A stretch of 64,000 bases of DNA from Arthrobacter sp. 35W (GTDB lineage: Bacteria; Actinomycetota; Actinomycetes; Actinomycetales; Micrococcaceae), in contig NZ_KI519455.1 of assembly GCF_000482545.1 (NCBI RefSeq), positions 806,001-870,000 on the forward strand, given 5' to 3'. The translations under genes were made by a program, and so were the position numbers. The stretch's first letter is position 1; every line of letters begins with the position of its first letter. Shown piece after piece: positions 6,670-43,367 of the stretch. Below the pieces are notes generated by a model. The model was not told the origin of the DNA, did no database searches, and saw nothing but the letters and a program-made list of their open reading frames with translations.

Positions 6670-6722
6670 TGTTCATTTTTTATGAATATTCAATTAGAGT
6701 GAATGTTCAGTCCAAATGAACA
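6670..6722 (+). promoter_or_regulatory. AT-rich promoter/operator region of the AbiE pair
   Basis: A sharply AT-rich island in GC-rich DNA directly upstream of the antitoxin gene. TGTTCATTT (6670-6678) and AAATGAACA (6714-6722) form a perfect 9-bp inverted repeat, with further ATGAAT and GTGAAT half-sites between them. AbiEi antitoxins are known to repress their own operon by binding inverted repeats, so this is a plausible operator. TAGAGT (6695-6700) could be the -10 box. The assignment is inferred from position and symmetry. Confidence 0.5.
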
Positions 6723-6733
6723 GAGGAGGCGAC

Positions 6734-7756
6734 GTGCTGGAAAGCAGCATCGCCATTGTTGTTCAACATCTGACCCGCTACGGCATCGACGCACGCGCGG
6801 AAGAGTCCGATTGGTCCCGCCCCGCGTTCGAGCACCCGCTTCTCACACTGCAGCGCGGAGCCGAACGCCAGACCTTCATGATCCTGGATCATGCCCTGAC
6901 ACAACGACCCCTTCCCTCCGGAGAGCAGGCCAAGCCCCTGATCATCCAGGACTACATCGACGAACGGCAGGCCCGAGACTACCGGGAACGGCACCTGAAT
7001 TTCGTCGATGAGGCCGGCAACGCCTTCATCGCCTTCGGGAACGTCTATGTCGACGTCAGAGGCCGCCGCCTCAGCCGCCGGATACCCGGGCGGAAGGACG
7101 CCCGGACCGGCGCTTCCGCCCCGGGTGTGAATCTGTTCAGCGCAGGCAGATCCCGTCTGCTGTTCGTCCTGCTGACCTGGCCCTACGTCCCGCGCCTGAC
7201 GATCAGGGAGATCAGCACACTCTCCGGGGTATCGGTCGGCCTTGCCCAGGAAACCCTGAAAGTGCTCCAACGGGAGGAATACCTCTCCCTCGGGCCCGGC
7301 CCGCAACTGCTGAGGCAACGCGAGCTCTTCGAACAATGGGTCATCACCTATCCCCACCAGCTGGCCCCCAAGCTGGCCCTGGAATCCTTCAGATCATCAA
7401 CTCCGGGCCTTCACGGGCCCTTGGCGTCGGGGATGGAAGTCAGCGGAGAAAGCGCCCTCCCCGATCTGCTCAAACCATCGACACTGACCATCTACGTCGA
7501 CGAGTTCACCCCCCGCATGGCAGTGGAGAACAAGTGGCGCAGGGATGAGCACCCCAATGTCTTCCTCAGGCACAAATTCTGGACGGACCCGGGCAGTCTC
7601 GACATCGAAGCCCCGACACCGGCCGGGACCCTGCCCGCTGTTCCCAGCACCCTCGTGTACGCCGATCTGCTCGCCAGCGGCGAACCCCGACAGCGCGAAG
7701 CCGCCTCGATCCTGAAGGAGCACGATGACCGACTTCTCCGCATCTTCCGCTCATGA
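6734..7756 (+). CDS. AbiEi-type antitoxin / autorepressor of a type IV toxin-antitoxin system
   Basis: 340 residues. I chose GTG 6734 because GAGGAGG lies 4 bp upstream; the earlier ATG at 6716 precedes that site. A winged-helix-like segment in the middle (LTIREISTLSGVSVGLAQET) resembles AbiEi_2-family antitoxins, with long N- and C-terminal parts that I do not recognise in detail. The C-terminal part ends in PSTLVYADLLASGEPR, typical of this family. The gene overlaps the AbiEii toxin gene by 32 bp. The expected role is repressing the operon and, without touching the toxin, countering its effect. Assignment rests on the HTH and on the neighbour. Confidence 0.75.
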   Translation: MLESSIAIVVQHLTRYGIDARAEESDWSRPAFEHPLLTLQRGAERQTFMILDHALTQRPLPSGEQAKPLIIQDYIDERQARDYRERHLNFVDEAGNAFIAFGNVYVDVRGRRLSRRIPGRKDARTGASAPGVNLFSAGRSRLLFVLLTWPYVPRLTIREISTLSGVSVGLAQETLKVLQREEYLSLGPGPQLLRQRELFEQWVITYPHQLAPKLALESFRSSTPGLHGPLASGMEVSGESALPDLLKPSTLTIYVDEFTPRMAVENKWRRDEHPNVFLRHKFWTDPGSLDIEAPTPAGTLPAVPSTLVYADLLASGEPRQREAASILKEHDDRLLRIFRS

Positions 7757-8585
7757 GTTCGGCCCCCTGTGCACCGTCCTGCGCAGCATCATGGGCATCG
7801 CCGCCGGACCGGATGAGCAGATCATGCTCGTAGGCGCGCCGGCACGCGACCTGATCCACAAGGGCCTGGGGTTTGATTCGGAGCTGGCCAGCACCACCGA
7901 CATCGACATTGCCGTCGCCGTTGCCGACCGTTCCGCCTACCAATCCCTCACCACCGATCTCGAACCCGAGGGAGACACCCGGATCCGTTTCCGCATCGAC
8001 AACCGGTCCGTGGACCTCATACCCTTTGGCGGCATCGAGCACCCCACAGGAACAGCCATCCCCCACATGGACGGACACACGGTGGACGTCTTCGCCTTCC
8101 AGGAAGTCTTCGACGGAGCCGACCTGTACCGGCTGCCCGAGGGCATCGAGGTTCGGGTGCCCACGGCCGCCGGCTATGCCGCCTTGAAAATCAAGGCATG
8201 GGTGGACACGGGAGCCCTGGGCTGGACAAAGCATGCCCGGGACCTCAGCTACGTCTGCATGTGGTACCAAAACAGCCCGTCCCTCCACGACTCCCTCTAC
8301 GACTATGAGAAGGACGCCGACCTGTTCGAGCGTGCCGACTTCGACCAGGACCTGGCCTCCACCCATCTGTTGGGCAGGCACATCCGCACCGCCATCGGGG
8401 ACGACCTTGCCGACCAGCTGGGGACTCTATGGAACCTCGAAAGCCGGAAACTCATGGCATCAGCTGAACGAAACGACAGGTTCCTCACCATGGCAAAGGC
8501 CCGGGACTACGACACCAGACTTCAGTATTTCCACGCGATCCATACCGCCCTCTCAACTACCCGAAGCCAGGGACACGCGGATTGA
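7725..8585 (+). CDS. AbiEii/AbiGii-type nucleotidyltransferase toxin
   Basis: 286 residues; ATG 7725 has AAGGAG 6 bp upstream. The DNA-polymerase-beta-like nucleotidyltransferase signature is clear: LVGAPARDLI (hG..aR), the metal-binding TDIDIA about 18 residues later, and a third acidic strand SVDLIPFG. A later KIKAW...KHARDLSYVCMWY segment matches the conserved K..R..KD..D helix of the AbiEii family. AbiEii toxins transfer nucleotides to a cellular target (tRNA in the characterised cases) and cause abortive infection or growth arrest. It is translated with the overlapping AbiEi gene. Confidence 0.82.
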   Translation: MTDFSASSAHEFGPLCTVLRSIMGIAAGPDEQIMLVGAPARDLIHKGLGFDSELASTTDIDIAVAVADRSAYQSLTTDLEPEGDTRIRFRIDNRSVDLIPFGGIEHPTGTAIPHMDGHTVDVFAFQEVFDGADLYRLPEGIEVRVPTAAGYAALKIKAWVDTGALGWTKHARDLSYVCMWYQNSPSLHDSLYDYEKDADLFERADFDQDLASTHLLGRHIRTAIGDDLADQLGTLWNLESRKLMASAERNDRFLTMAKARDYDTRLQYFHAIHTALSTTRSQGHAD

Positions 8586-9129: not shown

Positions 9130-10599
9130 TCAGCGGGCCGGGCCGAAGTCAGGGAACACGAACGCACTGAACAGCGCGGTTTCGCCCGCGGAGGCACCGC
9201 GCAGGCGCAGGGCGTAGCTGAGCAGGGCGTGATCGATCATGGAGACCCGGTCGCCTTCCACCAGGGCGTCGTCGGAGAGGTTGTCGATGGCCCAGGTGAT
9301 GGCGGAACGGCCTTCGTAACGTTCCCGCGGGGTGAAGAGCAGCTCTGGTTTGCCGATCTCTCCGAGAATATTGAGCACGTAGCTGACCGGGAAAGGACGG
9401 TTTTCCCGGTCGAGGGGGCTGTCCAGGTCAGGGAACGAATCGGCCATGCGTTCCAGCGCCTCGTCCGGGATCAGGTCCATCCGGCCGGTCATCATCGCCA
9501 GTTCGATGATGTACGGGTAGGCGTTGCCCCGTGGCGAGTAGTTCTCCCCAGGGTCCACGATGTCCAAAACAGCGGCGACGTCCTCCATGAAGGAGTCAAG
9601 GTCCGGGATTTCCTCGGCCAGGCGGCCCAGGTTGTGCAGGGCAATGACGTAGTACTGGGCCATGTGGACCCGGATGTTCCAGGGGATCTGGCCCATCAGC
9701 TCCTTGGCCACGGCCAAGGCGTCCACCGGCCGGGTCAGGTACTCGGGCCTGCCGCACATGGCGACCGCGTTGAGCATGGTCAGGAGGGGGTAGACCTTTT
9801 TCCAGGGGATCGTGAGGTGGTTGTCGAAGGCTGGCCAGTTTTGGATCTCGTCGGCCCTCGTCAGGTATTCGAGGACTTCCTGCATGTAGTCGCGATCGCC
9901 GTCAAAGATATGCTCCGTGTAGCCGAGCAGTGCGATCACGGACATCAGCATCCCGCCGGCCCTGCCGCAGAAGTAGGGAATGGGGATCCGGTCCAACAGG
10001 TCCAGCGCCTCGATGATGTGGTTCCGTTCGGCGGCAACCAGGCGGTCGCCCAGGCCCAGCTGGCCGAGGGCGAGGAAGACAGCGCTGCTGGCACAGACAC
10101 GTTCGTATTCTCCGTGGCGGCCCTGGTTGTCGTCCGCGATCTGGTCCGGGGCGATCTCGTCGAGCATGCCAAGCACCTCCGCGGGGAAGTCACGGTCCGC
10201 TGTAAGGAGCGGTCCCAGCCCAAGTTTGGCGAAGGCGTCCATGAGGATGCTTCCGGCCATGGCACGGTAGTACGCGTTGGGCACCGAGCGGACGGATTCC
10301 AGCAGCGGATCCACCGCGGATTCCACCCAGCTATGGTCGCTGCCCGGTTCGGCAGTCTTGAGCGTGAAGTCCGCCAGCTCGCGGCAGGACCGCGTGTAGG
10401 TGTCCAGCGGGGACACTTTCGCGACCAACTGATCGAAGGTGTCCCGGATGTAACCGGCGACGGTCTGGTCATAGTCGATCGGGTACTGACCCAGGCCGAT
10501 GCCTCGGAGCATCCGGCTCCACGGGGTCGCGATCATCCGGGATTCGATAGGCATGTCGGCCAGCCCGGAGATGGGAAGGGAACGCAGGACAGGGTTCAT
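9130..10599 (-). CDS. Unrecognised 489-residue, probably all-helical protein
   Basis: I do not recognise a family. No signal peptide or membrane span is seen, so it should be cytosolic. The composition and spacing (many short Leu/Ala/Met helices, repeated motifs such as PYFCGRAGGMLMSVIALLG, WKKVYPLLTMLNAVAMCGR and FPVSYVLNILGEIGKPELL) suggest stacked helix pairs, as in an alpha/alpha toroid or helical-repeat barrel. It starts with GAGGAC 6 bp before ATG and lies 52 bp after the 1245-residue acyltransferase/kinase gene, so the two are very likely co-transcribed. It could be an enzyme of the toroid type or a partner of the large protein; neither can be shown from sequence. Confidence 0.75.
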   Translation of the reverse strand: MNPVLRSLPISGLADMPIESRMIATPWSRMLRGIGLGQYPIDYDQTVAGYIRDTFDQLVAKVSPLDTYTRSCRELADFTLKTAEPGSDHSWVESAVDPLLESVRSVPNAYYRAMAGSILMDAFAKLGLGPLLTADRDFPAEVLGMLDEIAPDQIADDNQGRHGEYERVCASSAVFLALGQLGLGDRLVAAERNHIIEALDLLDRIPIPYFCGRAGGMLMSVIALLGYTEHIFDGDRDYMQEVLEYLTRADEIQNWPAFDNHLTIPWKKVYPLLTMLNAVAMCGRPEYLTRPVDALAVAKELMGQIPWNIRVHMAQYYVIALHNLGRLAEEIPDLDSFMEDVAAVLDIVDPGENYSPRGNAYPYIIELAMMTGRMDLIPDEALERMADSFPDLDSPLDRENRPFPVSYVLNILGEIGKPELLFTPRERYEGRSAITWAIDNLSDDALVEGDRVSMIDHALLSYALRLRGASAGETALFSAFVFPDFGPAR

Positions 10600-10651
10600 T
10601 TGTCAGTCCTCAGATAGGAATGGTGTTCAAGGAGTTTTGGGTTCGGCGGTG

Positions 10652-13600
10652 CTACGTAGTGGCCGCGTTTCCGGTCGCCGGGACCGGAATTCCGAGGAAC
10701 TCGGTGCGGGTGCCTTCGAGCATTTCAAGAGCCCAGTTCAGCCACTTGATGCCTTCGGCGTAGATCGCGACCGGTCGGCGTTGCGCCAGCGGAGTGTCTG
10801 TCAGGGACCCGTCTACTTCGGAGAGGAAGTGGAACGGCGGCATCGCGGTGAAGTGCGTGCCCATGGTGAACACAAAGCGGGTCAGCCAGTGCGGGTCGTC
10901 CCGGTGCTGGGCGGAGTCGGGATCGTCGAGCTGGTAAACCGATCGCATTACCCGGGCGAAGTGTGCCTCCATCCCGGACTGGTCGGTGATTGGTTCACCC
11001 TGCTCGACGACGTCGCGGACGTTGTACGCGCGTTGGTAGGGATTGCCGGTGCGGAACCGGACGTCGATGGTGGGCACCCCGTCGACGGTGCGGGTGTCGA
11101 GCTCGAACTGTTCGTAGTGCATCTCGTCGTAGTGTCCGAGGGAGTTGTGCCACGGCTTGTTGTCGTACATCGGGTCATCGCTGGTGTCCGCGCCGTCGCT
11201 GCGGTAGCCGATGGCGCGCGGGTCGAGGAACATCACCCCGATCGAATCGGCGGTGATTGCTTGAAGTGCCGAGTCGACCTCGGCGGGGGCGGCGCCGGAT
11301 TCGATGACCCGCTGGGCGGTGAGCAAGGGTTCGACGTTGATGATCTTGACGTTTTCCGTGTTCGTGTCACCCATGACCAGGGCGTGGAAACAGGGTTCCA
11401 GGGTGTCCTGGAATTCCTTGCTGGCCCGCAATGCCACCAGGAGGGGCCCCACGTTGCGCAGGGTCCGCCCGTTGATCACGATCTGTTCCGGGTCAAGGAG
11501 CCATGACCCGAAGGTTTCCGGTGCGGTGCGTCGGCAGAGTTCCAGGCGGTGCTCGATCTTGGTGAGGTACTGCTCTTCGAGCGTTTCCCCGGGAGCCGGC
11601 TGGCGCCGTACCGTGTGTACGTCCCGGTGCAGCACGCCGAGGATCACTTCGTACACGCGGGCAACGACCGCAGACGGCGGGCTGGTCCTTTCGACCCATC
11701 TGCTGACTTCTTCGCCGGGAACATAGGACATTTCGTAGATGAGTTCCCGGAACTCTTCGGAGCGGTCCGCGGCGAGGTGCAACGGCACGGGGAGGCCACG
11801 GGCGGTGATTTTCCCGACCTGGGGGAACACCCGGCCGAGTGAGGGAGGTAATGCCCGGAGGTATTCTGCCTGACGTTGTGCCTTCGCGAACGGCGGCAGC
11901 ATCACTCCCGTCCCCTCCGGGTCCCAGTTCACGGTGGTAAGGGCATCGCTGAGGACCTTGCGCACCCGGACTCCCGGGACGTCGTCGTGTTCGAAGAACA
12001 TCGTCATCGATTCGCTGCCCCCGGCGCCGAAACCGATCACGGTCTCGCCCGGCTCAATGTACGCGTTCACGGTGCTGCTGAGGATCTTCCGACCCTGGGC
12101 ATACCGGAGGACCCGTTCACCTTCGTGGGAGCGGACGAGGGACGAACCTTCGTCCGCCGCATCGAGTGCACGGTTGATCCCTTTCCGCCACAGTTCCGCA
12201 GGTACCCGGACGGAGACGACCCGGGCCTGGTGCGGGGTCGACCGGACCCGGTACGATGCCAGCACGGAGCCGAGCGAGACGACCAGGCAGGCACCGTTGA
12301 GCTGGACGAGCCGTTCGGGGCGGTCCAGGGCGGCGTTGTGGAACACCCGGGCGGTGGCGTCCTGCAGCTCGCGCCGTGTATGCAGTGGCACCCCGTCGGG
12401 CGACAGCACGGGAATCGTGGAATCACCGATCTCGGGCAGGAGCCTTTCCAGCTCCGCGTTCACACGGTCCGGCCAGGGCTCAGGGTCGAACGTCAATGCC
12501 ACCAGGGGGATGATGCTCGCCGGTGTCACCGAGTGGGCCACGGCGAGGGCTAGCAGCCAGCCGGACCGGTCGCTGCCGGCGAGGTTGTGGTCTGTTTGGG
12601 CTATCAGCGACGGGCGGTAGATCCGCAGCAGTTCAAACAGGGCAAGCCGGTGCGCCACGAAGGCGACAGCGGCCTGGATGCTCACCAATCCGTGACCGGC
12701 CTGCCGCAGGCGCGGGGTCACGGAGGCGATGTCGGTGTAGATCCGGTCTGCTGGCGGTTGGGCCCGGGCCAGGGCCCGCGCGGCCCGGACAATCTCATCC
12801 GCGCTGGTGTCGGGGGACTTTTCGAAGTGGAACACTATTGATTCGGCGTGGCTGGCCCGGTCCAACAAGACCACCTCGACTTTGCCGTCCGGGTGCAGCG
12901 CCTCCAACTCGGTCGCGGCGTGGCCGAGCGTCGAGGCCTCCCCGTTCAGCCGCTTCTTCACCCTGGATCGTGCGACAAGCAGGCCTTCGGCAATGTCTTC
13001 CCGGTGTGCCAGGGTGTGTCGGAATAGATCGAGGAAGCGGCGCAGCCCGTCAAGATCATCACGGCGGGGCCGGCTGACTACGTCGGTGATCGCTTCCCCG
13101 ATCACGCGCCGCACCCAGAGCAGCGGCAGCGGCGAGGCGGACGGACCGAAGACGTCACGCAACAGTTCCAGATGTGCCGGACTAATGGAGGCGCCCGGTG
13201 ACCGCAGTTCACGCAGCGCGGAGCGGAAGCGGTCGGCGACGCTCATCGCGTCCAGGACGCCGGTGTCATCGGCCGTCCATGACGTGGCGGGCACGTCGAC
13301 CCCGTTCGCCGTCAGCAACTCCACGGAGCGGTTCCCCAAACCGATTTCCAGGATCACATCGGGATCGATGTGCTTGATCTCCTCGGCGGTGCCCTCGGAG
13401 TCCATGATCCGGTCGGCCATGGCGAGCACGGCGTCGCGGATCTCCTCGGCGGACGTCAGCACCGCCTTCCGGTGGTTCGCGATGACTGGTGTGTGCGGTG
13501 TGCGGAACTCGATCCGCTGCGAGGCCATCCAACTCGATAGAGCATCCCGGACAACGCTCATCCGTGCGGAATGGGCCAGGAATGTCGTGGGCGTTTTGAG

Positions 13601-14389
13601 CTCGGTCGCTTCGATGAGCGGGTAACGCTCAAGCCTCTTCATGAAGCGAGGCAGATAGCCGCCGCGGACGTACACATTGGCCTGGCGCCACGAGTACCGC
13701 TTATGCACCTCCACGTCCGTCGACAGAACAGACGAGGCGAGGTCCTTCAGTAGTTCCTCCAAATGCTCCGGGTCGCCGACAAGCCCCAGGACGTGTGCCG
13801 GTTCCTCGACCGGGAATTCCCCGGGCGTGAACGGGGGCAAATGTCCGCGCAGTTCCTGCAAAAACTCGTCCCCGGTGTCGGCTGCCCCGGCGTCGGGGGC
13901 GGAAGCGAGGAGCATGAGAGGTGTGAACGCCTCCGCAATGCGGACGCCCTCTCCCACCGTCAGCGCTCCCGAGGCGACTGCAGCGCTCAGAACCCCGAAA
14001 CTCTCCCCCGTGAATGCGGCGAAGGAGTACCCCACCCCGCGGATTGCGGCCAGATGTTCGAATCGGTCGGCCAGGGCCAGGTTTGCGGCAAGTACGCCTG
14101 CGCCGATCCTGCCCTGCCTGCGCAGTCGGTCCGGCGGCAGGCTGCCCTCAAGCAGCAGCTCTGCTTTTGTCGCCGGGTCCCGCAGGGCCGCTGCCGCTTC
14201 GTCCAGAAGCGTCAACGTGCGCAGCGGCGCGTCGTTCAGAATCGCGGCCGCCGCCCCACGGTATGCGGCCCGGCTTCCCAGGCCGGGAAAGAATCCGACC
14301 AGCCGGGCCTGCGCCGGGGCTGGGTCTTGGATTGGGATGCCGGGTGTTCCCTTTGGAACGGCCGGCAGAACGGAAGTTGCCATGAACAT
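10652..14389 (-). CDS. 1245-residue acyltransferase / phosphotransferase-like fusion protein
   Basis: Residues ~30-365 form an FabD/polyketide-type acyltransferase domain. FPGLGSR (34-40) stands for the FPGQGSQ motif, GESFG carries the nucleophile Ser130, AHSARM the His273, and DPDVILEIGLGNRS the final conserved strand. Residues ~500-640 contain a second stretch that looks AT-like (SIQAAVAFVAHRLALFELLR) but has no GxSxG. Residues ~760-1130 resemble an aminoglycoside-phosphotransferase/protein-kinase fold. A Gly-rich loop GFGAGGSE and VRVRKVL (Lys811) are followed by MGDTNTEN (1006-1013) in the catalytic-loop position. The metal-binding equivalent is FLDPRAIGY (Asp1056), and MYDNKPWHNSLGHYDEM then recalls sugar/capsule kinases. 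ATG 14389 follows AAAGGGG. An enzyme that both acylates and phosphorylates a small molecule is inferred. Confidence 0.85.
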   Translation of the reverse strand: MFMATSVLPAVPKGTPGIPIQDPAPAQARLVGFFPGLGSRAAYRGAAAAILNDAPLRTLTLLDEAAAALRDPATKAELLLEGSLPPDRLRRQGRIGAGVLAANLALADRFEHLAAIRGVGYSFAAFTGESFGVLSAAVASGALTVGEGVRIAEAFTPLMLLASAPDAGAADTGDEFLQELRGHLPPFTPGEFPVEEPAHVLGLVGDPEHLEELLKDLASSVLSTDVEVHKRYSWRQANVYVRGGYLPRFMKRLERYPLIEATELKTPTTFLAHSARMSVVRDALSSWMASQRIEFRTPHTPVIANHRKAVLTSAEEIRDAVLAMADRIMDSEGTAEEIKHIDPDVILEIGLGNRSVELLTANGVDVPATSWTADDTGVLDAMSVADRFRSALRELRSPGASISPAHLELLRDVFGPSASPLPLLWVRRVIGEAITDVVSRPRRDDLDGLRRFLDLFRHTLAHREDIAEGLLVARSRVKKRLNGEASTLGHAATELEALHPDGKVEVVLLDRASHAESIVFHFEKSPDTSADEIVRAARALARAQPPADRIYTDIASVTPRLRQAGHGLVSIQAAVAFVAHRLALFELLRIYRPSLIAQTDHNLAGSDRSGWLLALAVAHSVTPASIIPLVALTFDPEPWPDRVNAELERLLPEIGDSTIPVLSPDGVPLHTRRELQDATARVFHNAALDRPERLVQLNGACLVVSLGSVLASYRVRSTPHQARVVSVRVPAELWRKGINRALDAADEGSSLVRSHEGERVLRYAQGRKILSSTVNAYIEPGETVIGFGAGGSESMTMFFEHDDVPGVRVRKVLSDALTTVNWDPEGTGVMLPPFAKAQRQAEYLRALPPSLGRVFPQVGKITARGLPVPLHLAADRSEEFRELIYEMSYVPGEEVSRWVERTSPPSAVVARVYEVILGVLHRDVHTVRRQPAPGETLEEQYLTKIEHRLELCRRTAPETFGSWLLDPEQIVINGRTLRNVGPLLVALRASKEFQDTLEPCFHALVMGDTNTENVKIINVEPLLTAQRVIESGAAPAEVDSALQAITADSIGVMFLDPRAIGYRSDGADTSDDPMYDNKPWHNSLGHYDEMHYEQFELDTRTVDGVPTIDVRFRTGNPYQRAYNVRDVVEQGEPITDQSGMEAHFARVMRSVYQLDDPDSAQHRDDPHWLTRFVFTMGTHFTAMPPFHFLSEVDGSLTDTPLAQRRPVAIYAEGIKWLNWALEMLEGTRTEFLGIPVPATGNAATT

Positions 14390-14538
14390 GCCTTACCCCT
14401 TTACTTCAACACGAAGACGATTCCTGGTTTACTTCGGCACGGTCCAATTCTGTGCCTTTCTGACCGCCAAGGTTTCCGTGGGGGACGGCCGCATCATTCG
14501 CGGCGGGTCCCCGCGTCAATCTGGCGGCGGTGGTGTCC

Positions 14539-15954
14539 TCAGGCCGTGGTTTTGCTGCTGGCAGGCAGTCGCAGGAAGAGCGCGACCACGACGGCGGAGA
14601 CCAGGCAGATGGCCGCGTTGATGCCGATTGCGGCCTGGAGTCCGGGGAGGAGCGTTGAGGCAGCGAAGGCAGTGACGATTGCTGACATGACGGGGGTGCC
14701 GAGGGTGATGCCGACCTGCTGGCTCATGGTGATCAGGCCGGTGGCGAGGCCCTGCTGTTCGGCCGGCACTCCAGTGGTGGAGGCGACGGTGTAGCCGACG
14801 ATCGCGACCAGGTTGGCGACGCCGCCGATGAAGGTGACGGCCAGCAGCGGAATGACCCAGGCCTGGTTGTCGGAGACGAAGGCGAGTGGGAGGGTCGCGG
14901 CGCCCTGGATGATGAAGCCGATGACGATTGCGTTCTTGGAGTTGATCTTTCCGATGACTTTCGGAGCGATGAGTCCGCCCAGGACGGTCCCGATGCCGAG
15001 CCAGGCGAAGATCAGGCCGGCGGTGACGGCGTTGAATCCGAGGGTTTCCTGCAGGTAGAGGGTGAGCGGGAACACCAGCGACGTCTCGGTCGCGAACGCA
15101 AGGAGCCCGGCGAAGTTGCCCCAGGCGATGTTGCGGCGCTTCAGCAGCGCCGGGTCGAGAAGGGGTTCGGCGACGCTGGATTCGATCCACAGGAAGACCG
15201 CGAACAGGATCGCAGCTGCGAGGATCGGGCCCCAGGCGAGCGGGTCGGCCCATCCGGCCGCGCCGGCGGTGGTAATGCCGTAGACGAGGGAGACCAGGGC
15301 AAGAGTGACGGTGATCGCGCCGGGAGTGTCCAGGCGGGGTCGGCGTTCGGTGGGCTTGTCGGTCAGCGCGAACGGGGCCGTGGCCAGGACGAACAGGGCG
15401 ATGACGACGTTGATGAAGAAGGCCCAACGCCAGCTCACCAAGCCGGCGAGCACACCGCCGAGGGCGGCACCGGTGGTGAACCCTGCGGCCATGAGGGCGC
15501 CGCTGAGGCCGAGGATGCGGGCGCGGGCCGGCCCTTCGGTGAACATGGTGGTGAGTAGTGACAGGGCCGCCGGGGTGACCATGGCGGTGGCGAGGCCCTG
15601 CCCGACGCGGGCAGTCAGCAGCAGCACGGGTTCGGCGGCGAGGCCGGCGACAAGGGAGGAGGCACCGAGAAGGACGATGCCGAGGATGAATAGGCGTTTG
15701 CGGCCGAACAGGTCGGCGACGCGGCCGAAGAACAGGGTGAAGCCGGCCGCGCATAGGGCGAACGCGGTGACGATCCATTGCAGGTTCGCGGTGGTGAAAC
15801 CGAGGTCGCGGCCGATGTGCGGCAGGGCGACATTGAGGACGGAGAAGTCCACGGCGAGGGTAAAATTCGCCGTGAGCAGCACGGCGACGGCCAGACGCTG
15901 GCGGCCGGTAAGCCGTTCCGCCGCCCTGGTCGCGAGCAAAGTATTCGCGGTCAT
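14539..15954 (-). CDS. MFS drug-efflux transporter (DHA2/EmrB-QacA type)
   Basis: 471 residues with about 14 predicted membrane helices. Helix 1 contains the family pattern LDxxIVNVALP as VDFSVLNVALPHIGRDLG. The loop 2-3 motif A is GRVADLFGRKRLFILG, and motif C is in the GLSGALMAAGFTTGAALGG region. It is a proton-coupled exporter of the EmrB/QacA type. It sits 102 bp downstream of the flavodoxin-like oxidoreductase and 149 bp upstream of the acyltransferase/kinase gene on the same strand. Export of the product of that cluster, or resistance to a toxic compound sensed by the ArsR protein, are both reasonable. Confidence 0.9.
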   Translation of the reverse strand: MTANTLLATRAAERLTGRQRLAVAVLLTANFTLAVDFSVLNVALPHIGRDLGFTTANLQWIVTAFALCAAGFTLFFGRVADLFGRKRLFILGIVLLGASSLVAGLAAEPVLLLTARVGQGLATAMVTPAALSLLTTMFTEGPARARILGLSGALMAAGFTTGAALGGVLAGLVSWRWAFFINVVIALFVLATAPFALTDKPTERRPRLDTPGAITVTLALVSLVYGITTAGAAGWADPLAWGPILAAAILFAVFLWIESSVAEPLLDPALLKRRNIAWGNFAGLLAFATETSLVFPLTLYLQETLGFNAVTAGLIFAWLGIGTVLGGLIAPKVIGKINSKNAIVIGFIIQGAATLPLAFVSDNQAWVIPLLAVTFIGGVANLVAIVGYTVASTTGVPAEQQGLATGLITMSQQVGITLGTPVMSAIVTAFAASTLLPGLQAAIGINAAICLVSAVVVALFLRLPASSKTTA

Positions 15955-16056
15955 GGTGGTCTATCCCTTTCTGGTGCGGTATCCGGAAGTCCGGATGGGC
16001 GCAGTTGAGCTGCGGACGGGCATGATGCACTGTCCGCTGTCGTGATGGTGAGGTAG

Positions 16057-16767
16057 TTAGGAAGTGGCGGCCAGGGCGCGGTAGCGCGTGGAAGCCGCCA
16101 GGGGCCTGTGGTGAAGATTGCTGAAAGCGTCCCGCACCCGGTGGAGCGCTTCTGCCCGCAGGGCATCGTCCAGGTGGGCCGGGCCGTAAGTGATGATTGG
16201 TTCGAGGGCGGCGTAGCCGACGAACTCGAACATTCCGCGGTTGATGTGGAAGAGGAAATCATTGATGTCCCCGAACGCCCCGTCGGGGGCGAAGGCAGCG
16301 GCCGAACCGCCGGTCGTGGCCAGGACCACGGCTCGCCGCCCGGTCAAAGCGGCCTGCTCGAAGGCGCCGAGGTCGCCGCCGCTGACGCCGCCCATGACGA
16401 AGACCCGGTCCAGCCAGCCTTTGAGGATCGCCGGCAGGGAGAACCACCACAGCGGGAACGACAGCACCAGTAGATCGGCGTGGAACACCGCGTCCAGATC
16501 GGCGCGGACGTCCGCCGGCAGGGTCCCGTCCTTCACGGCATTCCATTGCTCGCGCTGCGGTTTGAACGGCCCCTCGAACGGCTCGAACTCGTCCCGGCCC
16601 AGGACAGGCTCCCATTTTTTTGCGTACAGGTCGATGAACTTGACGGCGTAACCCTGCGCCCGCAGGGACTCGGCGGCGGCGTGCGCCTGAGAGGTGGAAA
16701 ACGAGTCGGTCTCGGGATGGGCGTGGATGATGAGCGCCGAGGCGCGGGTGTCTGGTTGCGTGCTCAC
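16057..16767 (-). CDS. NAD(P)H dehydrogenase (quinone)-type flavoprotein
   Basis: 236 residues from GTG 16767; the ORF is open upstream but that part overlaps an operator-like sequence and the neighbouring gene. The flavodoxin-like fold of NQO1/MdaB/KefF relatives is shown by ALIIHAHPETDSFS, which binds the flavin phosphate. FPLWWFSLPAILKGWLDRVF and VVLATTGGSAAAFAPDG are the other conserved segments of the family. Such enzymes carry out two-electron reduction of quinones or nitro-compounds in the cytosol. Co-orientation with an ArsR regulator and a drug exporter suggests a detoxification module. Confidence 0.87.
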   Translation of the reverse strand: MSTQPDTRASALIIHAHPETDSFSTSQAHAAAESLRAQGYAVKFIDLYAKKWEPVLGRDEFEPFEGPFKPQREQWNAVKDGTLPADVRADLDAVFHADLLVLSFPLWWFSLPAILKGWLDRVFVMGGVSGGDLGAFEQAALTGRRAVVLATTGGSAAAFAPDGAFGDINDFLFHINRGMFEFVGYAALEPIITYGPAHLDDALRAEALHRVRDAFSNLHHRPLAASTRYRALAATS

Positions 16768-16786
16768 CCGCCCAGCATATCTACAG

Positions 16787-16806
16787 ATCGCGATATGTCG
16801 ATATGT
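16787..16806. promoter_or_regulatory. Candidate operator: tandem CGATATGT repeats
   Basis: CGATATGT occurs twice back to back (16791-16798 and 16799-16806), adjoining the palindrome ATCGCGAT (16787-16794). The block lies 20-39 bp upstream of the oxidoreductase GTG and immediately after the ArsR gene. It is AT-richer than its surroundings. A binding site for the ArsR protein controlling the oxidoreductase and exporter is inferred from symmetry and position only. Confidence 0.4.
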
Positions 16807-16808
16807 TG

Positions 16809-17141
16809 CTAAGTGTTGCCCGCAATCTTGTCCCCCACTTGGCGCAGGAGAGTCTCGTTGCGCCTGTAGTGGGTCCACTTGCCCACACGAGTGGATTGGA
16901 CCAACCCGGCACGTTCCAGGGTGGTCATGTACGAGGAGACCGTCGATTGGGCGAGGCCGCTTTTGGCTTTGATGTGGCTGCCACAGACCCCGACTTCGAT
17001 CCGGTCGGCGATGGGATCATACTCGGCGAATTCAGCGACCGGGTCACGGAGCCAATCCATGATCTGCAGGCGCACAGGATTGGCCAGTGCCTTGAGCGCA
17101 TCAAGCAGCTCATTGGCAGAGAGACCGTCTTTGTCACTCAT
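16809..17141 (-). CDS. ArsR-family transcriptional regulator
   Basis: 110 residues from ATG 17141, which has GAGGAGGT 8 bp upstream; a longer in-frame start at 17189 lacks such a site. The winged-helix domain reads LDALKALANPVRLQIMDWLR and AQSTVSSYMTTLERAGLV, typical of ArsR/SmtB repressors. No CxC metal-binding motif in helix 3 is seen (a lone Cys in GVCGSH), so it is probably not a metal sensor; redox or small-molecule sensing is more likely. It is the first gene of the minus-strand set with the oxidoreductase and the MFS exporter. Confidence 0.88.
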   Translation of the reverse strand: MSDKDGLSANELLDALKALANPVRLQIMDWLRDPVAEFAEYDPIADRIEVGVCGSHIKAKSGLAQSTVSSYMTTLERAGLVQSTRVGKWTHYRRNETLLRQVGDKIAGNT

Positions 17142-27806: not shown

Positions 27807-27941
27807 ATGGAAATCATGACCGCACCGGCCATGGCCCGCCAGCACAGGACCACGCCCGCCGGCTGTGAAGGCCCGACCTTCAGCAGCCTGGCCAAGACGA
27901 CCTTCCCACTCGGCACCCCTGACGCAGGAGACACCAAGTGA
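27807..27941 (+). CDS. 44-residue leader peptide coupled to glycogen phosphorylase
   Basis: ATG 27807 has a strong CGGAGGT site 7 bp upstream, the best in this stretch, and the frame ends at 27941 overlapping the GTG of the phosphorylase gene by 4 bp (GTGA). The peptide (start MEIMTAPAMARQHR) has no recognisable domain or membrane span. Overlap indicates translational coupling. Whether the peptide itself works or only its translation matters is unknown. Confidence 0.55.
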   Translation: MEIMTAPAMARQHRTTPAGCEGPTFSSLAKTTFPLGTPDAGDTK

Positions 27942-30553
27942 AGGCCATCCGCAGGTTCACCGTCCGCACCGTTCTGCCCGAGCCCATCGCGCCGTTGTCC
28001 CGTCTGGCAACCAACCTGCGCTGGTCCTGGCACCTGCCCACCCGCGAGCTCTTCGCTTCCCTGAACCCGGCCATCTGGGCCGAAAGCGGCGAGGACCCGG
28101 TCACCTTCCTGGGCACCGTGAGCCGCGAGCAGCTCCAGCAGCTGGCCGCCGACCCCGCCGTCGTCGAACGAGTCCGGGCCGCCGACGAGAATCTGAACCA
28201 CTACATCCAGTCCCCGCGCTGGTACCAGACGCTGGGCGAGGAAGCGCCGGAGTGCGTTGCGTACTTCTCCCCCGAGTTCGGCATCACGGAGGTGCTGCCG
28301 CAGTACTCCGGCGGTCTGGGCATCCTGGCCGGCGACCACCTCAAGGCCGCCTCCGACCTCGGCGTGCCGCTCATCGGCGTCGGGCTGCTGTACCAGGCCG
28401 GGTATTTCAAGCAGTCCCTCTCCCGCGACGCCTGGCAGCAGGAGACCTACCCGCTGCTGGACCCGGACGGACTGCCGCTGACGCTGCTGCGCGAGGCCGA
28501 CGATTCCCCGGCCCAGGTGTCCCTGCCGCTGCCGGACGGGCGCCGGCTGCTGGCCCACATCTGGCGCGCCGACGTCGGCCGCGTTCCGCTGCTGCTGCTG
28601 GATTCCAATGTGCCCGGCAACGACGACGCCGCCCGCGCCATCACCGACAGGCTCTATGGCGGCGGTGGCGAGCACCGCCTGCTCCAGGAACTGCTGCTGG
28701 GCATGGGCGGGGTCAAGGCGCTGCGCGTCTACGCCCGCCTCACCGGCGCTCCGGCACCGGAGGTGTTCCACACCAACGAGGGCCATGCCGGCTTCCTGGG
28801 CATCGAACGCATCCGCGAGCTCATGGACCCGGCCGTCACGGCCTACCCGCTGGACTGGGACCAGGCGCTGACGGCGGGCCGGGCCTCGACGGTGTTCACC
28901 ACCCACACCCCCGTGCCCGCGGGCATCGACCGCTTCCCGCGCGCCCTGGTCAAGCACTTCTTCGATGCCGGTCTGGCCCCGGGCGTACCGCTGGAGAAGG
29001 TGCTGGCGCTGGGCGGCGAGAACTACGACGGCGGGGATCCGGCCATGTTCAACATGGCCGTGATGGGGCTGCGGCTGGCCCAGCGGGCCAACGGCGTCGC
29101 CAAGCTGCACGGCGTGGTGTCCCGCGAGATGTTCTCCGGGCTGTGGCCGGGCTTCGACCACGAAGACGTGCCCATCGGCTCCGTGACCAACGGCGTGCAC
29201 GTGCCCACCTGGGTGGACCCGCGGATGAGTGCGCTGGCGGCAAAATACTCTGGCGGCTCCGATGTGGACGCCACGGGCTGGGAAAACGTCTACGACGTCA
29301 GCGACGCCGAGCTCTGGTCCCTTCGCAAGGAACTCCGTGGGTCCCTCGTGGAAGACGTGCGCCGACGCCTGCGCGCGTCCTGGAAGAAGCGCGGCGCCTC
29401 CGACGCGGAGCTGGCCTGGACGGACAATGTGCTGGACCCCGACGTGCTCACCATCGGCTTTGCCCGCCGCGTGCCCACCTACAAGCGGCTGACCCTGATG
29501 CTGCGCGATCCCGCCCGGCTCAAGCGCCTGCTGCTGGATGAGGAGCACCCGATCCAGCTGGTCATCGCCGGAAAATCCCACCCCGCCGATGACGCGGGCA
29601 AGAAGATGATCCAGGACCTGGTCCGGTTCACCGACGACCCCGAGGTCCGGCACCGGATCGTGTTCCTGCCCAACTACGACATCGCCATGGCCCGCACGCT
29701 GTTCCCGGGCTGCGATGTCTGGCTGAACAACCCGCTGCGCCCCCTGGAGGCCTGCGGCACCTCCGGCATGAAGGCTGCCATCAACGGCTCGCTCAACCTG
29801 TCCGTGATGGACGGTTGGTGGGACGAGCTCTACGACGGCGAGAATGGCTGGGCGATCCCCACGGCCAACAACGGCGCCGACCCGGAAGAACGTGACGACA
29901 TCGAGTCGGCGGCGCTCTACGAGCTGCTGGAGACCCAGGTGGCGCCGCGCTTCTACGGCGACACCGTGGCCGACAGCGCCGGTGCTGCCGGACCGTCCCT
30001 GCCCGCCCCGGGCGGTGTGCCCACGCACTGGATCTCGATGATCAAGCACACGCTGGCCCATCTGGGCCCGGCGGTCTCCGCCGAACGCATGGTGCAGGAC
30101 TACGTCAACCGGCTGTACCGCCCGGCAGCGGAGTCCGGCCGCAGTGCCCGTGCGGACGGCTACGCCGAGGCCAAATCGCTGGCGGCCTGGATCGGCAGCG
30201 TGCGCACCGGCTGGCCGCGGGTGGCCGTGGACCATGTCGACTCGGTCGGGGTCACGGACGATCCCCAGATTGGCGATGCGATCCAGGTGCAGGCCTATGT
30301 GGCCCTGGGCTCCCTGAGCCCAGACGACGTCAGCGTGGAGGTGGCCTACGGCCGCGCGCTGGACAACGACGAGCTCAGCGAGACCACCCTGGCGCCGCTG
30401 GCACCGGTGCGCGATCTGGGCAACGGCCGCCACCTGTTCGAAGCCGGCGCCGTCATCGACCGCTCGGGCAGCTTCGGCTACACCGTGCGCGTGCTGCCGG
30501 CCCACTCCGCATTGGCCTCCCCGGCCGAGCTGGGATTGATAGCCAACGCCTAA
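27938..30553 (+). CDS. glgP: Alpha-glucan (glycogen) phosphorylase
   Basis: 871 residues from GTG 27938 (GCAGGAG upstream). The protein is of the long alpha-glucan phosphorylase type with an N-terminal DUF3417 region (NLRWSWHLPTRELF). The catalytic core shows AYFSPEFGITEVLPQYSGGL, FHTNEGHAGFLGIERI and the pyridoxal-phosphate lysine in EACGTSGMKAAINGSLN. It releases glucose-1-phosphate from glycogen or maltodextrins in the cytosol. The gene overlaps the leader peptide by 4 bp and is followed after 117 bp by glgC, which consumes glucose-1-phosphate. Control by the LacI operator upstream is inferred. Confidence 0.94.
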   Translation: MKAIRRFTVRTVLPEPIAPLSRLATNLRWSWHLPTRELFASLNPAIWAESGEDPVTFLGTVSREQLQQLAADPAVVERVRAADENLNHYIQSPRWYQTLGEEAPECVAYFSPEFGITEVLPQYSGGLGILAGDHLKAASDLGVPLIGVGLLYQAGYFKQSLSRDAWQQETYPLLDPDGLPLTLLREADDSPAQVSLPLPDGRRLLAHIWRADVGRVPLLLLDSNVPGNDDAARAITDRLYGGGGEHRLLQELLLGMGGVKALRVYARLTGAPAPEVFHTNEGHAGFLGIERIRELMDPAVTAYPLDWDQALTAGRASTVFTTHTPVPAGIDRFPRALVKHFFDAGLAPGVPLEKVLALGGENYDGGDPAMFNMAVMGLRLAQRANGVAKLHGVVSREMFSGLWPGFDHEDVPIGSVTNGVHVPTWVDPRMSALAAKYSGGSDVDATGWENVYDVSDAELWSLRKELRGSLVEDVRRRLRASWKKRGASDAELAWTDNVLDPDVLTIGFARRVPTYKRLTLMLRDPARLKRLLLDEEHPIQLVIAGKSHPADDAGKKMIQDLVRFTDDPEVRHRIVFLPNYDIAMARTLFPGCDVWLNNPLRPLEACGTSGMKAAINGSLNLSVMDGWWDELYDGENGWAIPTANNGADPEERDDIESAALYELLETQVAPRFYGDTVADSAGAAGPSLPAPGGVPTHWISMIKHTLAHLGPAVSAERMVQDYVNRLYRPAAESGRSARADGYAEAKSLAAWIGSVRTGWPRVAVDHVDSVGVTDDPQIGDAIQVQAYVALGSLSPDDVSVEVAYGRALDNDELSETTLAPLAPVRDLGNGRHLFEAGAVIDRSGSFGYTVRVLPAHSALASPAELGLIANA

Positions 30554-30555
30554 AA

Positions 30556-30602
30556 AGGCATGCCACCCCCGCAGGCGGTCGAGCCGCAGGGGTGGCATGC
30601 CT
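30556..30602 (+). terminator. Hairpin between glgP and glgC
   Basis: A 17-bp stem with one mismatch (30556-30572 with 30586-30602; arm begins AGGCATGCCACCCC) and an inner GGC/GCC pair in the loop. It starts 3 bp past the phosphorylase stop. No U-run follows, so it may attenuate read-through or stabilise the upstream message instead of ending transcription fully. Confidence 0.6.
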
Positions 30603-30670
30603 CCACCCATCCTGGCCACATGCACCGCCTGGGCCAGGTCAACAGCAACATCAAACACCAGGGAGTGAAG

Positions 30671-31996
30671 ATGGCTTCGAAGAAGGTTCTGGCAATTGTT
30701 CTCGCCGGCGGTGAAGGCAAACGGCTCATGCCGTTCACGGCGGACCGGGCCAAACCGGCGGTCCCGTTTGCCGGCGGCTACCGGCTGATAGATTTTGCCT
30801 TATCCAATCTCATCAACTCGGGCTACCTGCAGGCCGTCGTCCTGACCCAATACAAGTCACACAGCCTGGACCGCCACATCTCCGAAACATGGCGGATGTC
30901 CACGCAACTGGGCAACTACATCGCCTCGGTCCCGGCCCAGCAGCGCATGGGCAAAAGCTGGTTTCTGGGCAGCGCCAACGCGATCTACCAGTCCCTGAAC
31001 CTCATCCATGACGCCCGGCCGGACATTGTGGTGGTGGTCGGCGCAGACCATGTCTACCGCATGGACTTTGAGCAGATGGTACGCAGCCACATCAATTCCG
31101 GGGCGAAGGCTACGGTCGCCGCCGTACGCCAGCCGTTGTCGATGGCCAACCAATTCGGTGTAATCGAAGTCGATGAATCCGCCGAATCAGATGCAGGCAC
31201 GGCCCACAGGATTTCCGCCTTCATCGAAAAGCCGGACTCGACACCGGGACTCACCGATGACCCGTCCCAGTTCCTGGCCTCGATGGGCAACTACGTCTTC
31301 GATGCGGACGCACTGGAGGCCGCGCTGGAACACGACTCCCTGCGTGAGGACACCGAACACGACATGGGTGGGGACATTGTCCCGTATTTCGTGGGCCGCG
31401 GCGAAGCCTTCGTCTACGACTTCACCACCAACGACGTCCCCGGCGCCACTGACCGCGACCGCAACTACTGGCGTGATGTGGGCACCATCGATTCCTACTT
31501 CGATGCCCACCTGGACCTGGTCTCCCCCCTGCCCGTGTTCAACCTGTACAACTCCAGCTGGCCCATCTACACCAGGCAGAGCATCTCGCCACCGGCAAAG
31601 ATGGTCCGCGGCAACACTGACACCGCCGGAACCGCCCTTGACTCCATCCTTTCCAGCGGTGTCGTCGTCTCCGGCGGGGCCGTGGAGAACTCCGTGCTCT
31701 CCCATGACGTATACGTCTCCAGCGGGGCGCGGGTAATGGACTCGGTGCTCATGGACAAAGTCTCCATCGGCGAAGGGGCCGTCGTCAGACGGGCGATCCT
31801 GGACAAGAACATCAACGTCCCGGCCGGGGCAACCATCGGCCTGGACCCAGACCATGATCGCCGACGCGGCTACAAGGTCACCGAGTCCGGGATCACCGTT
31901 CTTGGCAAAGACCAACATGTCCCCGCCCCCGACGAACGCGACAAGGAACTGGCACGGGCGGCATTGGCAGACCCCCTCCCGGCCGGAACCCGCTGA
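30671..31996 (+). CDS. glgC: Glucose-1-phosphate adenylyltransferase
   Basis: 441 residues from ATG 30671 (AGGGAGTG upstream); the longer ORF includes the hairpin region. N-terminal nucleotidyltransferase motif [20 protein letters not shown], product-binding [10 protein letters not shown], catalytic YRMDFEQM region, and a C-terminal left-handed beta-helix ([20 protein letters not shown]). It makes ADP-glucose from ATP and glucose-1-phosphate for glycogen synthesis and is usually allosterically controlled. Sharing a region with the phosphorylase suggests balanced glycogen turnover. Confidence 0.95.
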
Positions 31997-35832: not shown

Positions 35833-38800
35833 CTACGGCTGGCGGCCGGCCGTTGCGCGGCGGCGGACCATCACTGCCCCGCCGGCGGCGAGCAACAGGA
35901 CACCTGCCAGGGCAAGCCCGAGCGAAGTGAATCCGGTGCTGCCCAGGGCCTCGGCACCACTCCCGGCGGGCGGAACCGGGAGAGCCGGCTTCAGGACGAA
36001 CCCGAAGTCCAGCGTGGCATCCTGGTCGCCATTGTTGGTCAACCCCTGGGAGGCGGACGTCCACGTCGAGGAATCGTCCCCACGGCTGCCCTCCGTCTCC
36101 TTGGTCGGCACATAGGGGGCCAGAGCCTCTGCGGAGGCGGTCCTGTCGATCGAGACCGTGTAGGACTGGCCCTCCTTCAGCACGGGCAGTCGGGCGAAGA
36201 GGTACCCGCCGTTGCCGTCCGTGGACACCGGGTGGACGGCGTTGCCGTCAATGTCCGTGACGGGCTTGCCGTCGGGGCCCGCCAGCGTCAGGACGACGCC
36301 CGGGATGCCCTTCTCGCCGGCACCCTGGCGGCCGTCATTGTTGGCATCGACCCAGACGTAGTCGCCCACGGAGACCATCGGCACCACAAACCCGAAGTCC
36401 AGGGACGGATCATGGTCGCCGTCCTTGGCCAGCCCCGTGGAAACCGCCTGCCAGGTTGACGAGTCGGTGCCGCGGCTGCCGTCCGTTTCCTTGGTCGGAA
36501 CGTAGGGTGCCAGCACCTCGTGTGAGGCCTTGCGGTCGATCAGCACCGTGTAGGACTCGCCGCCGGCCAGGGCCGGCAGGTTCTCAAAGATGTAGGCACC
36601 GTTGGCGTCCGTGGCGGTTGGCAGCACCGGGTCGCCGAAAACATCTGTGACCGCCTTGCCGTCGGGGCCGGCCAGTATCAGCACGACGCCGGGGAGGCCC
36701 TTCTCGCCCGCGCCCTGCAGGCCATCGCGGTCGCCGTCGATCCAGACGTAGTCGCCCACGGAGACCTTCGGGAGGACAAACCCGAAGTCCAGTGACGAAT
36801 CGTGGTCGCCATTGCTGGACAACCCTTCCGAGGAGGACTTCCAGGTGGAGGAGTCGCCGCCGCGGTTGTCGTCGGTTTCGATGGTCGGGATGTACGGGGC
36901 CAAGGCATCTGCCGAGGCCTTGCGGTCGATCGAAACCGTGTAGGACTCGCCGTCGGCCAGCGTGGGCAGGTTCTCAAAGACGTACCAGCCATCGCCATCA
37001 GTGGTGGTCGGGAGCACCGGGTCGCCGAAGACATCTGTGACGTCCTTGCCATCCGGACCCACCAGTGTCAGGACAACTCCTTCAATGCCGGGTTCGCCCT
37101 TGCCCTGGCTGCCATCGCGGTCAATGTCGTTCCAGACGTAGTCGCCCAGCGAGACCATCGGCACCACAAAACCAAAGTCCAGCGTCGGATCACGATCGCC
37201 GTCGTTGACCAGGTCCTGCGAGGACGCCGTCCACGTTGAAGAATCATCCCCACGGTGCCCGGCGGTTTCCTTGGTCGGGACATAGGGTGCCAAGGCCTCG
37301 GCCGAGGCGGCCTTGACGATCTTGACGGTGTAGGACTGGCCGGCCGTGAGCACCGGAAGATCATTGAACGTGTACTTGCCATGCTCGTCCGTGGCCACGG
37401 CGCCAACGGTCCTGCCGTAGATGTTGGTGACAGGGTTGCCCGTCGGGCCAACCAGTTCCAGCACGACGCCCTCGATGCCGGGCTCGCCCTTGGACTGCAG
37501 GCCGTCACGGTCCTCATCAACCCAGACGTAGTCGCCCACGGAGACCTTGGGCTTGAGCACGAAGCCGAAGTCCAGGGTCGGGTCGTGGGAGCCATTGCTG
37601 AGCAGCGGAACCGTCGACTCCGCCGACCCCGTGGAGGAGTCCTTGCCGCGGTCGCCGCCGGCACCGGCAGTAGTAGGCAGGTACGGGGTGAGCGCCGTCT
37701 TGGAGGCCTCGGCGTCAATGGAGACGGTGTAGTGCTGGCCGTCCGTGAGCACCGGCAGGTTGGCGAAGATGTACTTGCCGTCCACGTCGGTGGCCACCGG
37801 TCCCACGGGATTGCCGTTGATGTCGGTGACGGGCTTGCCATCCGGGCCCGCCAGCGTCAGAACGACGCCGGGGATGCCCTTCTCGCCCGACCCCTGCAGG
37901 CCGTCGCGGTCGGCATCGAACCAGACGTAGTCGCCCACGGAGACCATCGGAACCACAAAGCCGAAGTCCAGCGACGGATCGCGGTCGCCATCGCTGGCCA
38001 GCCCCTGCGAGGAGGCCGTCCAGGTGGACGAGTCCGAGCCACGGTTGCCGGTGGTTTCCTTCGTCGGCACATAGGCCGCCAAGACCTCTTCCGAAGTCTT
38101 GCGGTCGATCGAGACGGTGTAGCTCTGGCCGTCCTTCAGGACGGGCAGCTTCTCAAAGGTGTACAGGCCGGCCGTGGTGGTGGCCACCGGCCCCACGGGA
38201 TTGCCGTTGATGTCGGTGACGGGCTTGCCATCCGGGCCCGCCAGCGTCAGAACGACGCCCGGGATGCCCTTCTCGCCCGACCCCTGCAGGCCGTCGCGGT
38301 CGGCATCGAACCAGACATAGTCGCCCACGGAGACCATCGGAACCACAAAGCCGAAGTCCAGCGTCGGATCGTGGTCGCCATCCTTGGCCAGCCCCTGCGA
38401 GGAGGCCGTCCAGGTGGAAGAGTCGCCCTCGCGTCCACCCTGGTTGGCCAGCGTCGGAATGTACTGTGCCAGCACGACCGCCGAGGCGTCCCTGTCGATC
38501 GAGACCTTGTAGGACTTGCCAGCCGCCGGGACCGGCAGGTTCGCAAAGAGGTAGGCGCCGGCGGCATCTGTCATGGTCTCCAGCACAATGTTGCCGTAGA
38601 CATCCTTGACCTGATTGCCGTCCTGGTCCGTGAGCTTCAGGACAACGTCCTTGATCGCCGGTTCGCCCGCATCCTGGCGGCCGTCACGGTCCACATCCAC
38701 CCAGACGTAGTCGCCCACGGACACCATTTCCTTGGCCTCGGGCCGGAAGGTGATGCCCGTCTTGATGGGCTCCTGCACGCGGCGGTCGACCTTGCCGTCC

Positions 38801-43143: not shown

Positions 43144-43367
43144 AACGATCTCCCCCAGAATTTTGCTGGCGGAATCGGCGCGCACGAAAGCGGCGCGGAT
43201 TCCACGAATTCGTGCTCAGAGTTGATCATTGCGTATTGAAATACCGGTTTATGGCCTAAAAGTGGCCAAAATCCCCAACTGGCACAGAATGTCCACTACT
43301 GGTGCACAAAAGCGGCGGCCCGGCAAAAATCCGCCGTTTGCTGTCAATTTCTGCCAAGCGACGTCGA

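Follow-up and report, generated by a model that had tools for sequence, protein, structure and literature searches.

What do an acyltransferase (AT) fused to a kinase-like domain and a neighbouring protein of no known family do together? The question is raised by a 64,000-nucleotide stretch of Arthrobacter sp. 35W (contig NZ_KI519455.1, positions 806,001 to 870,000; hereafter the window), where open reading frame (ORF) calling finds all five genes of a compact cassette open on the minus strand at 9130-17141, as a first-pass annotation had described. The two large products are AT-kinase, a 1245-residue protein composed of the AT domain, a middle region (MID) and the kinase-like KIN domain, and HEL, a 489-residue protein whose gene sits 52 bp downstream. 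Our best explanation, which we judge about as apt to be wrong as right, is that a horizontally moving cassette assembles or tailors a small molecule for export, with AT-kinase as its common front end and HEL as the exchangeable part that determines the product. The observation of the cassette is confirmed; its earlier interpretation, as genes that make, modify or detoxify a small molecule by acylation and phosphorylation and export it, is partly supported.

The gene pair and the exchange of HEL

Relatives of AT-kinase were sought in 84,980 species genomes. Seeding used exact patterns, so that the 53 related loci found (34-77% identity) are a lower bound. They occur in Actinomycetota, Enterobacteriaceae, Halomonas, Chromobacterium, Acetobacteraceae, Cyanobacteriota, Omnitrophota and Thiotrichaceae, covering the phyla Actinomycetota, Pseudomonadota, Cyanobacteriota and Omnitrophota. 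Three plasmid records also carry relatives, one from Acinetobacter larvae and two from Streptomyces, the latter annotating the pair as 'ACP S-malonyltransferase' and 'hypothetical protein'. A HEL relative is present in the same locus in 50/53 cases, the exceptions being L012 (where the contig ends just after the kinase), L040 and L046. As a rule HEL is the next gene; one gene intervenes in L047, HEL comes first in L037, and it is broken in L031 and L053. With 53 such loci, of which 50 also have a HEL relative, the clustering is more than chance, and the first-pass annotation, which had staked its reading on the two homologues being found together, is upheld on this point. Among open-licence papers, nothing related to the pair was found by title.

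Gene fusions also tie the domains together, in three arrangements: that of the window; that of Thiotrichaceae L054, with the AT fused behind HEL in one ORF beside the kinase; and that of Omnitrophota L027 and L041, where a single ORF reads AT-MID-KIN-HEL-HEL, with two or more HEL units. These giant ORFs encode 3130 and 3224 aa, and their N-terminal 830 and 945 residues have no credible Pfam match. A third Omnitrophota locus, L039, has a single HEL that is cut by the contig end. In L026, L029 and L051 the AT protein has an extra conserved N-terminal part of ~330 residues, and the kinase has its own ORF.

The cassette is scattered. KIN was found in 0/57 other whole genomes of the window's genus, family and order, and in 0/295 other genomes sampled from its phylum. 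In the KIN tree, Halomonas and Cellulomonas are neighbours (support 99), as are Chromobacterium and an Amycolatopsis (support 82). These groupings and the range of taxa given above suggest spread by horizontal transfer. E. coli genomes gave no DNA match to the Enterobacter gene. When proteins of two flanking genes were compared with other genomes of the genus, the best matches had 63% and 33% identity, the level of paralogues.

Pairwise identities of KIN and HEL correlate over 47 loci (Pearson 0.88), which fits co-inheritance overall. A replacement is seen in the streptomycete loci L006, L009 and L018. Against the other Streptomyces loci L007 and L021 these three show 67-78% identity in AT, 61-72% in MID, 79-84% in KIN and 55-57% in HEL; against the window they show 59-60% in KIN and 76-78% in HEL. 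In DNA, L006 and L021 stay 79% identical as far as the AT-kinase gene reaches and drop to 68% in HEL, and L006 and the window are 67% identical in KIN and 78% in HEL, with the rise beginning at the HEL gene; the break in identity lies between the two genes. One clade (SH-aLRT 100) unites five HELs, and the KIN data reject it (approximately unbiased test, p-AU 2.8e-7, for a group named after the HEL tree had been seen and with trees from quick searches). HEL has been replaced as a whole gene between lineages, a new result.

The exporter type follows HEL. An MFS type that we call c1 is present in 26/53 loci, and the window's own MFS type (at least 56% identity) in 3/53 (L002, L006 and L009). Over 37 loci, presence of c1 requires 2 changes on the HEL tree versus 6 on the KIN tree, and presence of the window's MFS with the cassette's flavodoxin requires 2 versus 3. 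These 37 were taken from 57 loci (the 53 related, the three plasmid loci and the window). Left out were L019 (two HEL copies), L020 (upstream region off the contig, so not assessable for c1), L012, L040 and L046 (no HEL found), L031, L033, L049 and L053 (genes broken or truncated), L039 (HEL running off the contig), L043 and L054 (HEL or KIN of insufficient length for the alignments used), and the cyanobacterial-type and Omnitrophota loci L027, L041, L042, L044, L045, L047, L048 and L052; the contrary rows L032, L034, L035, L037 and L018 were retained. Where the only HEL belongs to the window's wider clade (window, L002, L006, L009, L018, L028, L029 and L051), c1 is found in 0/8 loci; among those of the 53 that are actinobacterial, enterobacterial or from Halomonas and have another HEL in the tree, it is found in 23/24, with L037 as the exception. 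L019 has c1 and both kinds of HEL, and L040 has neither HEL nor c1. Because HEL is exchanged whole and the exporter follows it, we suggest that HEL decides which compound is exported.

The first-pass annotation had asked whether the pair travels with the MFS and ArsR genes of the window. It is often accompanied by an MFS (c1 in 26/53 loci, the window's own type in 3/53) and by ArsR (relatives in 16/53). Identities to the window's MFS are 56-81% in L002, L006 and L009 and 26-30% in L013, L025 and L056; flavodoxin relatives at 58-68% occur in L002, L006 and L009 only, with others at 36% in L032 and L034. The five-gene set seen in the window is thus not the general form of the cassette, its flavodoxin and MFS type being limited to those 3/53 loci.

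If the product model holds, the natural exchange would offer a ready-made HEL-swap test of product and exporter specificity, and two strains with both HEL types would allow side-by-side comparison. In Myceligenerans salitolerans, one AT-kinase gene of L019 (11631-15439) is followed by two HEL genes, which differ in type and lie on opposite strands. Amycolatopsis pithecellobii RM579 has two cassettes, L025 and L029, with different HEL types. In L040, around 11633, AT-kinase, ArsR and the palindromes described below are kept, and neither HEL nor the usual MFS was found.

The cassette in the window and its proteins

The features of the cassette are as follows; the MID/KIN boundary is approximate, and the two residue ranges overlap by ten.

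9130..10599, minus strand: HEL, 489 aa; ORF of a family without a database model, with internal repeats of ~50 residues
10652..14389, minus strand: AT-kinase (AT-MID-KIN), 1245 aa; ORF with relatives in 53 loci
10655..12109, minus strand: KIN, residues 761-1245; APH-like by motif (VRK811, YEM-x3-PG, MGD1008TNTEN1013, LD1056PR)
12080..13204, minus strand: MID, residues 396-770; by profile comparison, probably another AT-like domain, degenerate
13205..14314, minus strand: AT domain, residues 26-395; by profile comparison and Ser130 and His273, with Phe155 at the place of Arg
14539..15954, minus strand: MFS, DHA2-type and drug-efflux-like, 471 aa (MFS_1, E 6.9e-62)
16057..16767, minus strand: NQO-type flavodoxin-fold oxidoreductase (Flavodoxin_2, E 3.5e-41)
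16787..16802, no strand assigned: candidate ArsR operator, ATCG-N8-CGAT, a palindrome between ArsR and flavodoxin
16809..17141, minus strand: ArsR-family regulator, 110 aa (NF033788, E 9.3e-15)

AT domain. Pfam and NCBIfam assign ArsR, flavodoxin and MFS, the families proposed at first pass, and give only weak AT matches for AT-kinase. The window protein alone matches the Pfam AT model at E 0.019 (score 14.9 versus a gathering score of 32.7), mdcH at E 4.5e-5 and fabD at E 0.0023, the latter two far under cut-off. The family profile is stronger: built from 28 rows and compared by hhalign with 26 ATs from other genes, it gives 99.5% probability (E 4.8e-23), and the catalytic residues proposed earlier, Ser130 and His273, are each present in 28/28 rows. 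The residue 25 positions after the serine (residue 155), where the Arg of ATs binds the malonyl carboxylate, is Arg in 26/26 ordinary ATs, and Phe in 26/28 and Leu in 2/28 rows of the cassette family. Malonyl is therefore an unlikely substrate.

MID region. The description of AT-kinase as an AT domain with a kinase end was right about the AT and overlooked a probable degenerate AT-like region at about 396-770. By hhalign the MID profile matches ATs at 71.9% (E 3.4e-5), versus 0.1% for APH, LanC and squalene-cyclase profiles. An AT profile searched with hmmsearch at E up to 10 hits 25/36 MID rows (best E 1.8e-4), versus 1/36 KIN, 2/47 HEL and 1/36 shuffled rows as controls, and the two best PDB matches of the MID profile are FabD chains (E 0.10 and 0.12). 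Ser is found at the aligned nucleophile position in 0/36 rows. The assignment is weakened by the window's own MID row, which has no AT profile match, and by direct comparison of MID with the cassette family's own AT, which gives only 9.6%. On these profiles MID is likely a catalytically dead second AT-like domain.

KIN domain. Lys811, Asp1008, Asn1013 and Asp1056, to which the motifs would give catalytic or metal-binding roles, are present in 36/36 KIN rows. KIN also has the highest mean column identity (63%, followed by AT at 52%, HEL at 49% and MID at 39%, in alignments whose row sets differ). For the APH-like kinase end proposed earlier, these four invariant residues give support by motif, and the profile signals are weak: among the 36 KIN members, the best Pfam APH match is that of one member at E 0.023, and a search of the KIN profile against PDB sequences gave nothing credible. 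By motif, KIN would be an APH-type kinase.

HEL protein. As the first-pass annotation had stated, HEL belongs to no known family: searches of Pfam, NCBIfam and PDB sequences at E up to 1 found no match, and the HEL profile found none in PDB at E up to 10. Aligned with itself off the diagonal, the profile gives 97.5% (E 7.7e-12), with residues 52-422 falling on 99-477, an offset of about one 50-residue repeat. Trp27, Tyr165, Arg213, Tyr363 and Tyr407 are found in 50/50 rows, and Tyr165, Arg213, Tyr270, Tyr316, Tyr363, Tyr407 and Arg465, in 43 to 50 of 50 rows, are spaced by 44-58 residues. HEL may form a ring of helices whose inner wall is polar. Two candidate families found no support in hhalign comparison with small sets, LanC-like (PF05147) and squalene/hopene cyclase (PF13249), each at 0.2% versus 4 sequences. 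A SidE_PDE match of 1/50 HEL rows (E 0.00026) was treated as chance, since no His is among the listed invariant or nearly invariant columns.

Smaller genes and palindrome. ArsR starts at ATG 17141, preceded by GAGGAG, and stops at 16809; it scores 54.2 bits against NF033788, for which the cut-off is 55. The flavodoxin ORF stops at 16057 and could open at GTG 16878 or GTG 16767, the latter more likely because it does not overlap ArsR. The top matches of the MFS are efflux models of Lmr(A)/EmrB type, yet below their cut-offs. All 19/19 ArsR-bearing loci (16 of the 53, two plasmid loci and the window) have the sequence ATCG-N8-CGAT close to ArsR or to the exporter/flavodoxin. Over 998 kb of loci this motif has 50 matches, and 20 order-1 Markov controls gave 20.35 on average (range 11-29). 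In L050 it is near the MFS and far from ArsR; in L006 and L009 it is present both at ArsR and at flavodoxin, ~9 kb apart. Because the motif was picked by eye from the same sequences in which it was later counted, we take it as a lead to a putative ArsR operator.

Surroundings. The G+C content of the cassette (0.63-0.67) is inside the range of the window (0.61-0.72). Pfam and NCBIfam found no ketosynthase, carrier protein or nonribosomal peptide synthetase (NRPS) domain in the five cassette genes and two upstream genes, and no ketosynthase among the window genes scanned, which are part of the total; this agrees with the earlier statement that the cassette is not a standard polyketide synthase (PKS) cluster. 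The genome has one PF00698 match, located outside the cassette. Two Streptomyces loci have ketosynthase-type genes within a few kb of the cassette: L018 (14550-17955) and L021 (15979-16983), where two ORFs and one ORF, respectively, were scanned. Beside the cassette in the window, at 6716-8585, an AbiEi-type antitoxin gene (PF09952, E 3.8e-25) overlaps a nucleotidyltransferase-like gene that PDC-M21B and AbiEii models match weakly; the two are likely a type IV toxin-antitoxin-like pair. Farther away, at 27938-31996, a DUF3417/glycogen-phosphorylase-type gene precedes that of a nucleotidyl transferase with a GlmU/GlgC-like C-terminus, and a GGDEF protein comes third. At 35833-43185 lies a 2450-residue ORF, probably for a large surface protein, in which seven stretches are SdrD B-like and one match is of SpaA type.

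Readings of the cassette

If the cassette builds or tailors an exported molecule, the AT would take a non-malonyl acyl group onto Ser130 and hand it to a small acceptor, MID could be a structural or docking element, and KIN would phosphorylate the acceptor or the acyl intermediate. HEL, as a putative helical-repeat protein with about one conserved Tyr or Arg per repeat, may perform or template the last step, the one that defines the product. The MFS would export that product, and ArsR, where a locus has it, might sense the compound and control the exporter and flavodoxin.

Besides the limits of the tree test given above, several points weigh against this explanation. The chemical steps are inferred, as are the proposed folds of both KIN and HEL, export by the MFS and binding by ArsR. 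By hhalign, KIN matches APH at 2.1%, with the hinge and the GD-x4-N loop in register. An APH search by hmmsearch at E up to 10 hits 25/36 KIN rows (best 0.055) and adds little, its controls being close: 13/36 MID rows (best 0.094), 11/28 AT, 10/47 HEL and 4/36 shuffled KIN rows. The exporter rule fails in Acetobacteraceae L032, L034 and L035, which have the other HEL type and no c1, as has L037; L018 has the window's HEL type and neither the window's MFS nor its flavodoxin within the locus. The AfsA neighbours described below could belong to adjacent clusters, and the surroundings of loci without the AT, also described below, look as much like catabolism as synthesis.

A more specific form of the exported-product explanation is possible, and we put it forward tentatively: the pair may be a portable two-gene natural-product synthase, in which AT, pseudo-AT and kinase make a common acylated and phosphorylated intermediate without a carrier protein of the cassette, and exchangeable HELs lead to different exported products. 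If the product model is true, the cassette would be a minimal biosynthetic unit, expected to escape cluster detection based on PKS and NRPS domains. In any case KIN and HEL are large families, without significant Pfam, NCBIfam or PDB sequence matches, that recur as a pair across phyla.

Detoxification or self-resistance, the foremost rival, we consider rather unlikely. AT and kinase would acylate and phosphorylate an antibiotic or a toxic quinone-like compound and so inactivate it, HEL would select the compound, and MFS and flavodoxin would finish the protection under ArsR. This would explain the window's drug-efflux-like MFS, NQO-type flavodoxin and ArsR, as well as the sporadic distribution and the plasmid carriage in 3 records, and a change of exporter with HEL equally fits a change of drug. 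However, known APH or acetyltransferase resistance enzymes are far smaller than two large proteins comprising two AT-like domains and a repeat protein, and the flavodoxin and the window's MFS type are confined to 3/53 relatives. Relatives of AfsA, the A-factor synthase (PF03756), present in 10/53 loci (one at 36%), also argue against it. Together with ScbA and ScbR, annotated near the pair in plasmid record L055, they are secondary-metabolism surroundings, which speak for the exported-product explanation.

A catabolic or assimilatory route, in which kinase and HEL would activate a compound imported by the MFS, is improbable. It draws on nine loci that have the kinase without an AT match (seven cyanobacterial, L043 and L048). 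A set comprising Mo-hydroxylase FeS and Mo subunits, alcohol dehydrogenase, SRPBCC and amidohydrolase is full in 5/9 of them and partial in 3/9, with none in L046; in addition, LysR adjoins the MFS in four enterobacterial loci. But the loci that suggest catabolism have no AT, nor either of the MFS types seen in the main group, and the window's MFS best matches efflux models, though below their cut-offs. Very improbable is a regulatory, signalling or defence device, with AT-kinase modifying a cellular macromolecule on a HEL scaffold: HEL is a repeat protein without a recognised enzyme family and an AbiEi-like gene is nearby, but linkage to specific exporters would be unexpected and no relative was confirmed in viral contigs. 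Nor do PADLOC models of known or candidate anti-phage systems match either protein (0 families at E up to 0.01).

Comparison with known systems

The exported-product explanation can be set against known enzymes domain by domain. Like FabD/PKS-type ATs (PF00698), the cassette AT has a G-E-S-F-G elbow, the catalytic His and a nearly full-length profile match. It differs in having Phe or Leu for Arg and so lacks the malonyl-binding residue of malonyl-type ATs such as FabD; the single protein falls under the Pfam cut-off, and the domain is fused to a kinase-like domain and probably trailed by a serine-less second copy. KIN shares with APH/choline-kinase-like proteins (PF01636) the order of Lys, a hinge with P-V-P and M-x3-P-G, the GD-x4-N loop and Asp; unlike them it has no significant match in any of 36 members, and it has a long extra C-terminal part and an extremely conserved DDPMYDNKPWHNS-x-GHYD stretch.

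A-factor/gamma-butyrolactone genes (AfsA/ScbA, ScbR) are neighbours of the cassette in 10/53 loci (AfsA relatives) and in L055; elsewhere they do not belong to it, and none is among the window genes scanned. Class III/IV lanthipeptide synthetases combine a kinase with a LanC toroid. The cassette differs from them in that HEL has no LanC match (0.2%, four sequences) and in that no lyase or precursor peptide was identified at the cassette, where no specific search was made; the likeness, by analogy only, is that of a kinase-like domain acting with a helical partner.

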